Source: Halobacteriales archaeon QS_4_69_225
GTDB taxonomy: Archaea; Halobacteriota; Halobacteria; Halobacteriales; Haloarculaceae
Assembly (NCBI GenBank): GCA_003020965.1
Contig: PXRL01000026.1
Coordinates: 124,001 to 188,000, forward strand
DNA length: 64,000 bases
Direction: 5' to 3'
Numbering within the stretch: position 1 is the stretch's first letter; the number at the start of each line of letters is the position of its first letter. This document shows positions 4,709 through 42,426 of this stretch, one piece after another. The notes beneath the pieces are model-generated. The model had not been told where the DNA came from. It saw only the letters and a list, made by a program, of their open reading frames with translations, and did not search any database. Both the position numbers and the translations under genes were made by a program.

Positions 4709-5533
4709 TCATCCCTTCTCGCGGCCGGTCCGGAACGAGAGGTCCAGCGACGCCGCCGAGTGCGTCAGACTCCCTAGCGAGACGACGTCGACGCCCGTGG
4801 CGGCGTAGTCGGGCACCTCGTCGACGGTGATCCCGCCGGAGGCCTCCGTGAGCGCGCCGCCGTCGACGGCCGCGACGGCCCGCTCGGTCTCGGCGGGGGT
4901 CATGTTGTCCAGCAGCACCACGTCGGCGCCGGCCTCGACGGCCCGCGGCGCGTCGCCGGGCGTCTCGACCTCGACTTCCACCTTCGTCGCGAAGGAGGCC
5001 CGCTCGCGGAACCGCTCGACGGCCTCGGTCATCCCGAGTTCCTCGACGTGGTTGTCCTTGACCATCACCATGTGCGAGAGGTCGAGTCGGTGGGTGTCGC
5101 CGCCGCCGGCGGCGACCGCGCGCTTCTCGACGCCGCGGAGGCCGGGCGTCGTCTTGCGGGTGCCCGCGACCCGGACCTCGTCGCTCACCCCGCGGGCGGC
5201 CTCGACGGCCCGCCGGGTGCGGGTGGCGACGCCGGAGGCATGGCCGGCGACGTTGACCGCCACGCGCTCGCCGCGCAGCACCTCCCTCGCGGGCCCCTCG
5301 ACGCGGAGGACGGCGTCGCCCGGTTCGACCCGCTCGCCCGCCTCGAGGCGGTCCGTCACCGCGACGTCGAGGTACTCGAAGACGGCCGCGGCGGCGTCGA
5401 GGCCGGCGACGACGCCCGGTTCCGTGGCGACCAGCCGGCCGGCCGTCTCGCCGGGGACGTCGTTGGTGACGTCGTGGTGACCGAGGTCCTCCCGGAGCCA
5501 CCGCTCGACCTGCGAGCGCTCAATCGGCGTCAA
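4709..5533 (-). CDS. nadC: nicotinate-nucleotide pyrophosphorylase (carboxylating)
   Basis: GTRKTTPGLRGVEKRAVAAGGGDTHRLDLSHMVMVKDNH signature; adjacent to nadB/nadA. Confidence 0.95.
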   Translation of the reverse strand: MTPIERSQVERWLREDLGHHDVTNDVPGETAGRLVATEPGVVAGLDAAAAVFEYLDVAVTDRLEAGERVEPGDAVLRVEGPAREVLRGERVAVNVAGHASGVATRTRRAVEAARGVSDEVRVAGTRKTTPGLRGVEKRAVAAGGGDTHRLDLSHMVMVKDNHVEELGMTEAVERFRERASFATKVEVEVETPGDAPRAVEAGADVVLLDNMTPAETERAVAAVDGGALTEASGGITVDEVPDYAATGVDVVSLGSLTHSAASLDLSFRTGREKG

Positions 5534-7112
5534 CGGTCGCGCCCTCCTCGAGGTGGTGACAGCCCCGGGAGCGGTCGTTCTCGGCGGCCGCCCGGGCGAC
5601 GAGCAGGGCCGTCACGGCGGCGTTGCGCAGCTCGTACAGCGACCGGCTGGTCCGGGTGCGGGTGTAGGCGTCGACCTCGCCCTTCAGTCGCCGGAGCACG
5701 CCCGCCGCGCGCCGGAGGTCGTCGGGCGTCCGCCGGATGCCGACGTAGTCGTCCATGACGCGGCGGAGCCGGACGAACTTCTCCTCGGCGAAGCCGTCGG
5801 GCATCGCCGGGTCCCGGTCGAGCAGGTCGGGCGCCTCGACCGGCTCGGGGTCGTGGCCGGCGGCGGCCTCGCCGGCCCGCAGCCCCCACACCAGCGACTC
5901 CAGCAGGCTCGTCGACGCCAGCCGGTTGGCGCCGTGGACGCCCGTCCGGGCGCACTCGCCGGCGGCGAACAGCCGGTCCAGCGACGCCCGACCCTCGGTG
6001 TCGACGTCGATGCCACCACAGAGGAAGTGCTCGGCGGGCGCGACCGGAATCCCGTCGGCCGGGTCGACGCCGCGGCGCTCGCACTCGGCGTACAGGTCCG
6101 GGAACTCGCTCTCGAAGTCGAGCGGCGAAACACCGGAAGAGCCGAGCTCTTCCGAGCGTCGTCTCGCTTCGCTCGACGACACGTCCAGTCTCACCTCGCC
6201 GGTTCGCTCGCGTTCCTGCTTGACGGCGCGGGCGACCACGTCGCGGGGGGCGAGTTCGGCGTCGGCGTGGTAGTCGGGCATGAACCGCTCTCGGTCCCCG
6301 TTCCGCAGTAGGGCGCCCTCCCCGCGGACGGCCTCGCTGAGGAGGAAGGTGCCTTGGCCGCCCTCGCCACCCGCGAAGGCCGTCGGATGGAACTGGACGT
6401 ACTCCATGTCCGCGACGTCGGCGCCGGCGAGCGCCGCCATGGCGATGCCGTCGCCGGTGGCCGTCGCCGGGTTCGTCGACCGCCGGTAGCACGACCCGAC
6501 CCCGCCCGTCGCCAGCACCGTCGCGCCGGCGACACAGGGCGCCCGCTCGCCGTCCCGCTCCAGGATGGCGCCGTGGACGCGACCCTCGTGGGTGACGAGC
6601 TCGAGGGCGGCGGTGTCCTCCAGTATCTCGACGCGATCGTGGTCGGCGAGGTGGCTCAGGAACGGCGCCAGCAGGTGCCGGCCGGTCGAGGCGTCGACGT
6701 GGAGGATGCGCGCCTCGCTGTGGGCGGCCTCGCGGCCGTAGTCGAAGGCTTCGTCGCCGTAGCCCGAAGCGCGACGAGATTGCGTCGCGGGCTCGGACCC
6801 GCCGTCGAAGTCGACGTCCAGCGTCTCGACGAACACGTCGCGGACGGCCCCGTCGGCCGCCGAGACGAGCACGTCGACCGCCTCCGGGTCGGCGGCACCG
6901 GCGCCCGCCTTGAGGATGTCCTGCTTGAACGTCTCGGGGTCGCCGCGGGCGACGGCGACGCCGCCCTGCGCCCAGTACGATGTCGAGTCCTCGGGTCGGG
7001 AGGCCTTCGTCGCCAGCGTCACTTCGTCGCCCCGCCGGGCGGCCGCCAGCGCGGCCGCACAGCCGGCGATGCCGCTGCCGACGACCAGCAGGTCAGTCTC
7101 GCGCTCTTGCAT
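5520..7112 (-). CDS. nadB: L-aspartate oxidase
   Basis: VVGSGIAGCAAALAAARRGDEVTLATK, EYVQFHPTA, HFLCGGIDVDTEGRASLDRLFAAGECARTGVHGANRLASTSLLE. Confidence 0.95.
   Translation of the reverse strand: MQERETDLLVVGSGIAGCAAALAAARRGDEVTLATKASRPEDSTSYWAQGGVAVARGDPETFKQDILKAGAGAADPEAVDVLVSAADGAVRDVFVETLDVDFDGGSEPATQSRRASGYGDEAFDYGREAAHSEARILHVDASTGRHLLAPFLSHLADHDRVEILEDTAALELVTHEGRVHGAILERDGERAPCVAGATVLATGGVGSCYRRSTNPATATGDGIAMAALAGADVADMEYVQFHPTAFAGGEGGQGTFLLSEAVRGEGALLRNGDRERFMPDYHADAELAPRDVVARAVKQERERTGEVRLDVSSSEARRRSEELGSSGVSPLDFESEFPDLYAECERRGVDPADGIPVAPAEHFLCGGIDVDTEGRASLDRLFAAGECARTGVHGANRLASTSLLESLVWGLRAGEAAAGHDPEPVEAPDLLDRDPAMPDGFAEEKFVRLRRVMDDYVGIRRTPDDLRRAAGVLRRLKGEVDAYTRTRTSRSLYELRNAAVTALLVARAAAENDRSRGCHHLEEGATVDAD
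6134..6180 (-). repeat. palindromic insert inside nadB (two adjacent hairpins)
   Basis: CGGAAGAGC-CGA-GCTCTTCCG (6134-6154) and GTCGTCTCGC-TTC-GCTCGACGAC (6158-6180; 10-3-10 with two internal mismatches). Encodes SSSEARRRSEELGSSGV, unlike usual NadB sequence. Confidence 0.75.
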
Positions 7113-11997: not shown

Positions 11998-13206
11998 ATG
12001 GACACCGAGGAGCTCGTCGCGGCCGTCCGGGACGGCGAGTTGCGCCTGCACGAACTCGAAGCACACGCGGACGCCGACGCCGCCGCCACGGCACGCCGCC
12101 GGCTGCTGACCGAGGAGACCGACGCCGACCTCGAGACCGTCGGCGCCTACGGCTTCGACGCCGCCGACGCCGGGTCGAACATCGAGAACGCCCTCGGCGC
12201 CGCGCAGGTGCCGATGGGCGTCGTCGGCCCGGTCGAGATCGACGGCGGCGCCGTCGACGGCCAGCGGTACCTCCCGCTGGCGACGACCGAGGGGGCCCTC
12301 GTGGCGTCGGTCAACCGCGGCTGTGCGGCGATCGGCGCCGCCGGCGGCGCGACCGCCCGGGTGCTGCGGAACGCCATGACGCGGGCGCCGGTGTTCCGCG
12401 TGGCCGACGTCGGCGAGGCAGACACGGTCGCCTCCTGGGTCCGGGACAACGTCGAGGCGCTCGCCGAGGCCGCCGAGGCGACGACCGGCCACGGCGAGCT
12501 GCGGGAGGTGACGCCGTACGTCGTCGGCGACAGCATCTTCCTCCGCTTCGCTTACGACACCAAGGACGCCATGGGGATGAACATGGCCACCATCGCGACG
12601 GAGGCCGCCTGCGATGTCGTCGAGACCGAAACGCCCGCCGAACTGGTCGCGCTGTCGGGCAACCTCTGTTCGGACAAGAAACCCGCCGCCGTCAACAGCG
12701 TCGAGGGCCGCGGCCGGACCGTCGCCGCCGACGTCGAGATTCCGGGCGACGTCGTCGAGAGCTACTTCGACACGACGCCGGCGGCCATCGTCGAGGCCAA
12801 CACCCGCAAGAACCTCGTCGGCTCGGCGAAGGCCGGCTCGCTGGGCTTCAACGCCCACGCCGCCAACACCGTCGCCGCCGCCTTCCTCGCGACCGGTCAG
12901 GACATGGCCCAGGTCGTCGAGGGCGCAAACGCCATCACGACCGCCGAGGTCCGGGACGGGGCGCTGTACGCCAGCATCACCCTCGCGTCGCTGGAGGTCG
13001 GCACGGTCGGCGGCGGGACGACACTCCCGACGCAGGCCGAGGCGCTGGACGTCGTCGGCGTCGGCGGCGGCGGCGACCCCGCCGGGTCGAACGCCGACGC
13101 GCTGGCGGAGGTCATCGCGACCGCGGCGCTCGGCGGCGAACTGTCGCTACTCGGGGCGCTGGCGTCCGACAACCTCGCCAGCTCCCACGAGGAACTGGGC
13201 CGGTAA
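11998..13206 (+). CDS. hmgA: hydroxymethylglutaryl-CoA reductase (NADPH)
   Basis: ENALGAAQVPMGVVGPVEIDG, GNLCSDKKPAAVNSVEGRGRTV, DTKDAMGMNM, NAHAANTVAAAFLATGQDMAQVVE, VGTVGGGTTLPTQAE. Confidence 0.96.
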   Translation: MDTEELVAAVRDGELRLHELEAHADADAAATARRRLLTEETDADLETVGAYGFDAADAGSNIENALGAAQVPMGVVGPVEIDGGAVDGQRYLPLATTEGALVASVNRGCAAIGAAGGATARVLRNAMTRAPVFRVADVGEADTVASWVRDNVEALAEAAEATTGHGELREVTPYVVGDSIFLRFAYDTKDAMGMNMATIATEAACDVVETETPAELVALSGNLCSDKKPAAVNSVEGRGRTVAADVEIPGDVVESYFDTTPAAIVEANTRKNLVGSAKAGSLGFNAHAANTVAAAFLATGQDMAQVVEGANAITTAEVRDGALYASITLASLEVGTVGGGTTLPTQAEALDVVGVGGGGDPAGSNADALAEVIATAALGGELSLLGALASDNLASSHEELGR

Positions 13207-40942: not shown

Positions 40943-41250
40943 TGGACTGCCGGACATCGACCACAGCGGAGCTACCCCGGAGGCGTCCACGGCACTAACC
41001 ACCACCGGGCGCGCGACGCCGAACTCGCCCGACGGGGGCCACACGATGCCGCCGGAACACGACTGAGACGGCACCGGGTCTACTGAGGGTCGAAGAGCGG
41101 AAGACGCCGGGCGAAATCACCGCCGGCGCGCGTCCGGCCCGAGACCGTCGATGGTTGGACGGCCGCGGTGGACGACGAAGCCGACCGGCGCGGTCCGGGG
41201 GGGAGGGGGTAAGCGACACGGCTATGCCGGGCGACCGCCTAGCGGCGACG

Positions 41251-42426
41251 ATGAGTCAGCCGACGCCCGACGGCTACGAGGAGGGACGGGGGATGGACGC
41301 CCACAACGCGGTGATGCGGGAGGTCCGGAGCCGCAACGACCGGAGCTACGACCCGACGGAGCCGACCCGGGTGTGGCTCGACGAGGACAACACCCCCGAC
41401 GGGGTTCGGGACTCCCTGACGATCATCCTCAACACCGGCGGCTGCCGGTGGGCTCGGGCCGGCGGCTGTACGATGTGCGGCTACGTCGCCGAGAGCGTCG
41501 ACGGCGGCAGCGTCGACCACGGGAAGCTGATGACGCAGTTGGAAGCCTGTCTCGACCACGAGCGGGAGAACGCCGACGAGCCGGCCGGCCTGGTGAAGAT
41601 CTACACCTCGGGGTCGTTTCTCGACGAGCGGGAGATTCCGCCGGAGACCCGCGAGGCCGTCGCGGAGACGTTCGCCGACCGCGACCGGCTGGTCGTCGAG
41701 TCGCTGCCGGACTTCGTCGACCGCGAGAAGCTGCGCGAGTTCACCGACCGCGGTCTCGCGACCGACGTCGCCGTCGGCCTCGAAACGGCCACCGACCGCG
41801 TCCGCCACGACTGCGTGAACAAGTACTTCGACTTCGCCGACTTCGAGGCCGCCTGTGCGGAGGCGCAGGCGGCGGCCGAGCGAAGCGAGGCCGCCGCCGA
41901 ACGGGCGAGCGGGAGAAGCGAACGGCGCGAGCGACGACACGCGAGCCGGGCGGCGGGCGAGGGGAGCGAGGCCGCCGCCGGCGTGAAGGCGTACCTGCTG
42001 ATGAAGCCGCCGTTCCTGGCGGAACCCGAGGCCGTCGCCGACATGACGCGCTCGGTACGGCGGTGTGCGGCCGTCGAGGGCTGTCACACCGTCTCGATGA
42101 ACCCCTGTAATGTCCAGCGGCACACGATGGTCGAGGAGCTGTACCACGACGGCGGCTACCGGCCGCCGTGGCTGTGGTCGGTCTGCGAGGTGCTGGAGGC
42201 GACGGCCGACGCGGACGCCATCGTCGTCTCCGACCCCGTGGGCCACGGCTCCGACCGCGGCCCGCACAACTGCGGCGACTGTGATGACCGCGTCCAGACC
42301 GCGATCAAGGACTTCGACCTCCGGCAGGACCCCTCCGTCTTCGAGGAGGTCGCCTGCGACTGCGAGGCCACCTGGGAGTACGTCATGCGCGAGGAGACGG
42401 CGTACAACCAGCCGCTCGTGCGGTAG
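41251..42426 (+). CDS. archaeosine biosynthesis radical SAM protein RaSEA
   Basis: ILNTGGCRWARAGGCTMCGYVAES (radical SAM CxxxxxxCxxC), VGLETATDRVRHDCVNKYFDF, HTVSMNPCNVQRHTMVEELY, CGDCDDRVQTAI. Confidence 0.9.
   Translation: MSQPTPDGYEEGRGMDAHNAVMREVRSRNDRSYDPTEPTRVWLDEDNTPDGVRDSLTIILNTGGCRWARAGGCTMCGYVAESVDGGSVDHGKLMTQLEACLDHERENADEPAGLVKIYTSGSFLDEREIPPETREAVAETFADRDRLVVESLPDFVDREKLREFTDRGLATDVAVGLETATDRVRHDCVNKYFDFADFEAACAEAQAAAERSEAAAERASGRSERRERRHASRAAGEGSEAAAGVKAYLLMKPPFLAEPEAVADMTRSVRRCAAVEGCHTVSMNPCNVQRHTMVEELYHDGGYRPPWLWSVCEVLEATADADAIVVSDPVGHGSDRGPHNCGDCDDRVQTAIKDFDLRQDPSVFEEVACDCEATWEYVMREETAYNQPLVR
41868..41980 (+). repeat. palindromic low-complexity insert inside RaSEA gene
   Basis: GGCGGCGGCC-GAGCGAAGCGA-GGCCGCCGCC (10-bp perfect outer stem, 41868-41898) and a 16-bp direct repeat AGCGAGGCCGCCGCCG at 41884 and about 41965; encodes AAAERSEAAAERASGRSERRERRHASRAAGEGSEAAAG. 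Confidence 0.75.

Follow-up and report, generated by a model that had tools for sequence, protein, structure and literature searches.

The window, by which we mean the whole 64,000-nucleotide stretch of DNA analysed here, is a part of contig C26 of a draft haloarchaeal genome (2.95 Mb). Two of its genes are interrupted by a hairpin with the same 11-nt core, GAGCGAAGCGA. One encodes RaSEA, the archaeosine biosynthesis radical SAM protein, an identity proposed by the initial annotation and matched by profile TIGR01210 (E 3e-128). The other is nadB (L-aspartate oxidase), which hits TIGR00551 at E 1e-117, below the curated cut-off. The features are as follows.

41242..42426, plus strand: RaSEA gene, host of the insertion
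41844..41853, plus strand: left copy of the direct repeat CGAGGCCGCC
41868..41898, plus strand: RaSEA hairpin 1, with 10-bp arms (41868-41877 and 41889-41898) and the tip GAGCGAAGCGA (41878-41888)
41876..41976, plus strand: DNA inserted in RaSEA, net +99 nt (33 codons) compared with the uninserted allele of the relative G434 (L223)
41949..41979, plus strand: RaSEA hairpin 2, in the same insert, with the degenerate tip GAGGGGAGCGA and the arms GGCGGCGG and CCGCCGCC
41967..41976, plus strand: right copy of CGAGGCCGCC
5520..7112, minus strand: nadB gene, host of the second insertion
6126..6176, minus strand: in-frame insert of 51 nt in nadB, missing from the readable genus relatives; the left arm is partly native
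6134..6154, minus strand: second perfect hairpin in the nadB insert, CGGAAGAGC-TCG-GCTCTTCCG, without a GNA tip
6156..6182, minus strand: nadB hairpin, tip GAGCGAAGCGA at 6164-6174

The initial annotation had placed a palindrome in the RaSEA reading frame, and GGCGGCGGCC-GAGCGAAGCGA-GGCCGCCGCC at 41868-41898 (plus strand) does form perfect 10-bp arms; the end that it gave, 41980, takes in the whole insert. It had also claimed that the core is common to RaSEA and nadB and is translated in different frames. We find the same: the RaSEA copy lies in phase 0 and reads ERSE, and the nadB copy (6164-6174, minus strand) lies in phase 2 and reads SSEAR. The nadB arms, GTGTCGTC/GACGACGC, make six Watson-Crick pairs, or eight with G-T pairs.

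Comparing the RaSEA genes of haloarchaea, we find that the RaSEA copy adds 33 codons in frame to a loop that tolerates indels. We examined 80 haloarchaeal RaSEA loci, and the insert is absent from all 76 that were readable through the loop; no genus relative whose region was readable has it. The loop itself varies in length: the stretch compared has 24 to 84 residues, and 65 in the window. The source RaSEA is nearest to that of the MAG Halobacteriales archaeon QS_8_69_73 (87% over the best segment), followed by Natronomonas. The RaSEA copy is a recent landing. The G434 allele retains the ancestral sequence GCGCAGGCGGCGGGCGCCGGCGTG, and the first 8 nt of the left arm of hairpin 1, GGCGGCGG, are ancestral gene sequence, while the tip and the right arm are new. 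The allele of the nearest relative, G430 (97% identical), is TTCGAGGCCGCCGCCGGCGTG, the expected product of a deletion between the CGAGGCCGCC repeats at 41844 and 41967. Thus, we infer that the insert is probably older than the split from G430 and was later lost there. Over about 80 bp, the inserted DNA shares about 80% identity with dispersed repeat copies on contigs C18, C19, C3, C10 and C9.

RaSEA is not the only host. In-frame insertions missing from the orthologues were also found in nadB, in a cyclophilin (PPIase) gene and in a DUF1684 gene (L032), and the coding inserts have no common ends. In the 51-nt insert of nadB, new sequence pairs with the old GTGTCG. The PPIase insert (57 nt, two hairpins) has an outer native CGAGG that pairs with a new CCTCG, and the L032 insert (63 nt, two hairpins) shows the native-arm pattern less clearly. 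By alignment with the uninserted alleles, one arm in both RaSEA and nadB is old gene sequence, and the tip and the other arm are new; therefore, templated fold-back synthesis is indicated. The sequences also show that a few copies, including those of RaSEA and nadB, are in-frame insertions in gene parts that appear loop-like and indel-tolerant. An armless core copy lies within an intein-like segment of an MCM-like helicase gene (G000:C10:205375, L038).

The window holds two copies of GAGCGAAGCGA against 0.13 expected from dinucleotide shuffles, and the source genome holds 74. Arms of at least 4 bp (G-T allowed) flank 42 of these 74 cores, while about 4.7 are expected if the left flank of one copy is combined with the right flank of another. 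Since the flanks differ yet pair, the arms are locus-specific and complementary. The initial annotation had proposed a nucleic-acid-level element that tolerates coding insertion, to be refuted if the core lacked enrichment with complementary arms or if all coding copies shared one frame. Neither refutation materialised, and the proposal is supported by the arm enrichment together with the occurrence of more than one frame. For the exact core, a reversed-pattern control had to be dropped because the 12-mer GAGCGAAGCGAG is identical when read backwards; the generalised pattern described below outnumbers its reversed control by 437 to 159. Within the arms, G-T mismatches exceed A-C mismatches (58 versus 41, p ~0.01 against composition), which is only suggestive as a test of strand. 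A-G mismatches are also over-represented (116 of 328, pooled, mostly from the source genome), as if extra sheared G-A pairs were tolerated.

Examining the variants, we find that GAGCGAAGCGA is only the commonest spelling and that the conserved entity, as judged from sequence variation, is a fold. In the tip, a GNA or GNNA loop is closed by two inner base pairs, of which the outer covaries, and tandem G·A mismatches join these pairs to a stem whose sequence differs per copy. Among single-base variants of the core, position 6 is free (GNA) and the other positions are restricted. Tips of the form GACCGGAGGGA were found among perfect-stem hairpins and GAACGAAGTGA tips by reading the arrays; in these the inner pair is altered on both sides. 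When we counted, in the core loci, hairpins that combine a triloop with two inner pairs and a tandem mismatch, 64 of 80 had GA/GA, and 56 of these had a GNA loop; the loci had been chosen for the core, though many of the counted tips are other spellings. In a non-redundant 475 kb, the class GA-xC-GNA-Gx'-GA has 215 members, of which 93 have arms of at least 4 bp and 122 possess the full tip features without such arms. If GA, the loop ends or the closing pair is broken, armed tips are few or absent in this DNA. The array copies are mutually related, so tip and arm counts are not fully independent.

The fold persists when arms play no part in the selection. In an arm-unselected region, the inner pair is complementary in 84 of 100 tips, and 30 of these 84 have arms of at least 4 bp compared with 2.5 expected; tips without a complementary inner pair are armed in 2 of 16 cases. 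Picking 93 tips by the pattern GANCGNAGNGA alone, regardless of arms, we obtained a covariation of 0.479 for the structure ((((((..((...))..)))))), against 0.160 ± 0.016 for shuffled columns (0 of 500 shuffles reach the observed value), and 72.0% paired cells against 50.0 ± 1.4. Sliding the register abolishes the signal. All 12 tetraloop tips are GNNA; this pattern required G..A loop ends, and an earlier count of all 4-nt loops on GA/GA tips of the source genome had likewise given only GNNA. Position 3 is a pyrimidine (GNYA) in 11 of the 12, unlike the GNRA loops of RNA. Of 84 armed tips, 76 also have a pyrimidine 5′ of GA. Within the limits of sequence evidence, the comparisons show covariation of the arms and of the inner pair x/x', and almost no change in the tandem GA, in the C-G closing pair or at the G..A ends of the loop. 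A structural family of hairpins is well supported and all but certain.

The exact core was present in all 300 Halobacteria sampled, and armed tips were confirmed in G430, in G282, which belongs to another family, and in 80 named relatives. In G390, from another class of the phylum, tips are present and none of 14 is armed. We dropped a restriction of the family to Halobacteria, as unidentified IMG/VR viral contigs of other base composition bear armed tips, sometimes several with unrelated arms per contig; the fold therefore recurs outside haloarchaea. Two phage-like IMG/VR contigs bear tip hairpins whose arms are unrelated to one another, five on L511 and eight on L513; several of these directly follow gene ends. 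Coding regions, called by a home-made codon model and not by official annotation, make up 75% of the sampled DNA but hold only 14 of 93 armed tips; by this call the copies are mostly intergenic. Alignment with G430 reveals hairpin-rich blocks of 0.2-1 kb in one of the two genomes that have little or no counterpart in the other. Both the source genome and G430 are incomplete drafts, so some absences could be assembly effects. At one orthologous site, the two genomes have different perfect hairpins obeying the same rules, GAGGGT-GAGCGAAGCGA-ACCCTC and GAGAATC-GACCGGAGGGA-GATTCTC. The aligned sequences thus show hairpins sitting in repeat arrays that appear to be gained and lost between close relatives, with fast turnover.

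As our best explanation, we propose an element [arm]-GA-xC-GNA(or GNNA)-Gx'-GA-[arm'], a DNA fold-back hairpin set by structure and not by sequence, which would be carried as a module in haloarchaeal repeat arrays and have its arms perfected by template switching. A purine-rich strand that becomes single-stranded at replication or repair would snap into a very stable mini-hairpin. The tip would then serve as the turning point for fold-back or template-switch synthesis, and copying of the adjacent arm would yield a perfect complement whatever the arm sequence. New sites may arise when tip-bearing array DNA is copied or inserted elsewhere, as the resemblance of the RaSEA insert to dispersed array copies suggests. 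Genic copies would survive only in frame, in sense and in indel-tolerant loops; RaSEA and nadB would gain no function, the insert being tolerated and deletable again between direct repeats. An action at the DNA level is likely and spreading is inferred, while extrusion in vivo is assumed without any experiment. Template switching accounts for the arms and not for the spread of the same tip, and the dispersed arrays, perhaps mobile, are only its likely carriers; for this reason we give the whole explanation about an even chance.

In a rival reading, the hairpins are parts or ends of non-autonomous mobile elements (MITE-, PATE- or REP-like), with a transposase in trans and arms differing through many families. 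We regard this as possible but doubtful. The blocks that differ between near relatives and the similarity of the RaSEA insert to dispersed copies fit it, and so does a 362-bp block of the source genome (C27, L060:1410-1772) that is missing from G430, has the transposon-like ends TGTTTAGT...ACTAAACA and is flanked on both sides by the 9-bp CGCGYGGGA. This block probably belongs to a MITE-like family whose internal sequence recurs in related form at several loci. In addition, Natronomonas pharaonis and Haloquadratum are rich in IS605-type transposons and PATEs with near-terminal palindromes, which are likewise haloarchaeal, repetitive and mobile (PMC3119063). However, the hairpins do not resemble a transposon end, since the arms of one copy bear no relation to those of another and even the tip changes by covariation; the coding inserts lack common ends, and in RaSEA and nadB an arm is partly native host sequence. 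Terminal inverted repeats and target duplication, as expected of MITEs, are suggested at the L060 block and were not seen at the coding inserts. IS605 ends were rejected on two examples, a small sample: two TnpB loci of Haloferax volcanii pHV4 have palindromes without the tip. A motif scan for TnpB near source-genome hairpins, also a small sample, found none. In the plasmid collection, we found no match to the L060 block and short, mostly unannotated partial matches for two other blocks.

Also possible, but in our view doubtful, is a dedicated machinery for single-stranded DNA recognition or replication in Halobacteria and some phages. It would recognise the sheared G-A/GNA tip whatever the stem, copy the tip to new sites including genes and build matching arms from local DNA, the hairpins being selected or self-propagating for the fold alone.

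That the hairpin acts in transcripts, as a terminator, an mRNA stabiliser or a protein-binding stem-loop, we consider unlikely. All coding copies are sense (24:0 in the stricter call, 25:0 in another), and codon shuffles predict a sense:antisense ratio of 2.0 : 0.95, so codon composition explains only part of the skew. The excess beyond this ratio, like that of G-T over A-C in the arms, fits RNA as well as DNA. The RNA version also folds, and co-directional neighbours are somewhat favoured (30 same-same versus 17 opp-opp). On the other hand, intergenic copies face all ways and those on viral contigs have no orientation preference, gain and loss are rapid, and no Rfam family was found in 41700-42100. 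An intrinsic terminator was rejected, as a T-tract follows the 3′ arm in only 3 of 102 hairpins and orientation is mixed. DNA is favoured over RNA by the loop rules (GNYA, not GNRA), the lack of T-tracts and the weak intergenic orientation preference. It is favoured also by precedent, as GNA or GNNA loops on G-C pairs form extraordinarily stable, nuclease-resistant DNA mini-hairpins, e.g. d(GCGAAGC) with a Tm of 78 °C (PMC4686876), and GNA-capped single-stranded hairpins occur at Streptomyces telomeres. Coding copies are restricted in frame: nearly all lie in phase 0 or 2 and encode ERSE and xSEA peptides, a bias that codon composition accounts for in part.

A mere by-product of GAR/GCG-rich, acidic low-complexity coding or spacer DNA, yielding the 11-mer and short arms by chance, is hardly credible and already contradicted by the controls: haloarchaeal DNA is rich in GCGA and the reversed pattern, albeit with the same mirror symmetry as the core, is common too, but the core is in excess in the window, the swapped-flank, broken-feature and column-shuffle controls all fail to yield arms, codon shuffles give 0.15 sense cores compared with 10 observed, and the G390 tips are unarmed.

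Returning to the fold-back hairpin, its tips follow the loop rules of the stable mini-hairpins, GNA/GNNA closed by C-G (93 armed; the stability of the tip itself is inferred). Those are known from in vitro chemistry and aptamers, whereas the haloarchaeal hairpins are a natural genome-wide family with a tandem G-A collar. Streptomyces telomere palindromes are natural single-stranded DNA hairpins with GNA loops and compensatory stem changes; they are confined to the ends of linear replicons, and the available part of that source does not describe a tandem G-A with a 2-bp tip (PMC7205883). The tolerance of in-frame palindromes in RaSEA and nadB recalls the Rickettsia palindromic elements (RPEs), which lie in frame in unrelated protein genes (PMC10969869). 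RPEs, however, are families of about 150 bp defined by sequence, while the haloarchaeal hairpins have only their tip and fold in common, bear arms particular to each locus and lie mostly between genes. One family sequence along whole copies, the RPE trait, was not met, as the arms are unrelated and similarity to dispersed repeats is only partial. Like REPs, which have a GTAG-type foot, and BIMEs, the hairpins are short intergenic palindromes in the hundreds, often arrayed. As far as the accessible part of the source goes, sequence is conserved among REPs and a cognate tyrosine transposase, RAYT, accompanies them (PMC2817692), whereas our arms are unrelated. In yeast, template switching homogenises inverted-repeat arms, also in coding genes (PMC8604942), and palindromes in coding sequence are treated in a quasi-palindrome/template-switch context in what was available of another source (PMC6649704). 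Such mutations likewise produce perfect arms, but their mechanism involves no conserved tip. Searching the literature, without most subscription journals, we found no description of the 11-mer or of haloarchaeal palindromes of such kind.

Because only structure is shared, a family of this type would escape the usual sequence-based repeat finding. Hundreds of hairpins with differing stems and one tip rule would mean that structure rather than sequence can spread through a genome, and they suggest that living genomes contain, in abundance and with rapid turnover, a DNA fold well studied in the test tube. They may offer a natural system for the origin of palindromes and one route by which archaeal proteins acquire new in-frame segments.

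Two further observations concern the surroundings of the hairpins. A second dispersed haloarchaeal repeat with the motifs GAAAGCCCTCG ... CTTTC(T)(G)AGTCCGCCAGG occurs at L001, L036, L053 and H. volcanii pHV4 12600-12760 (L431), and it is unannotated in several plasmids. At 8 of 20 core loci tested (L010, L007, L034, L035, L039, L041, L047 and L058), the core has a tRNA gene no more than a few hundred bases away, and L060 is a ninth locus with a tRNA.
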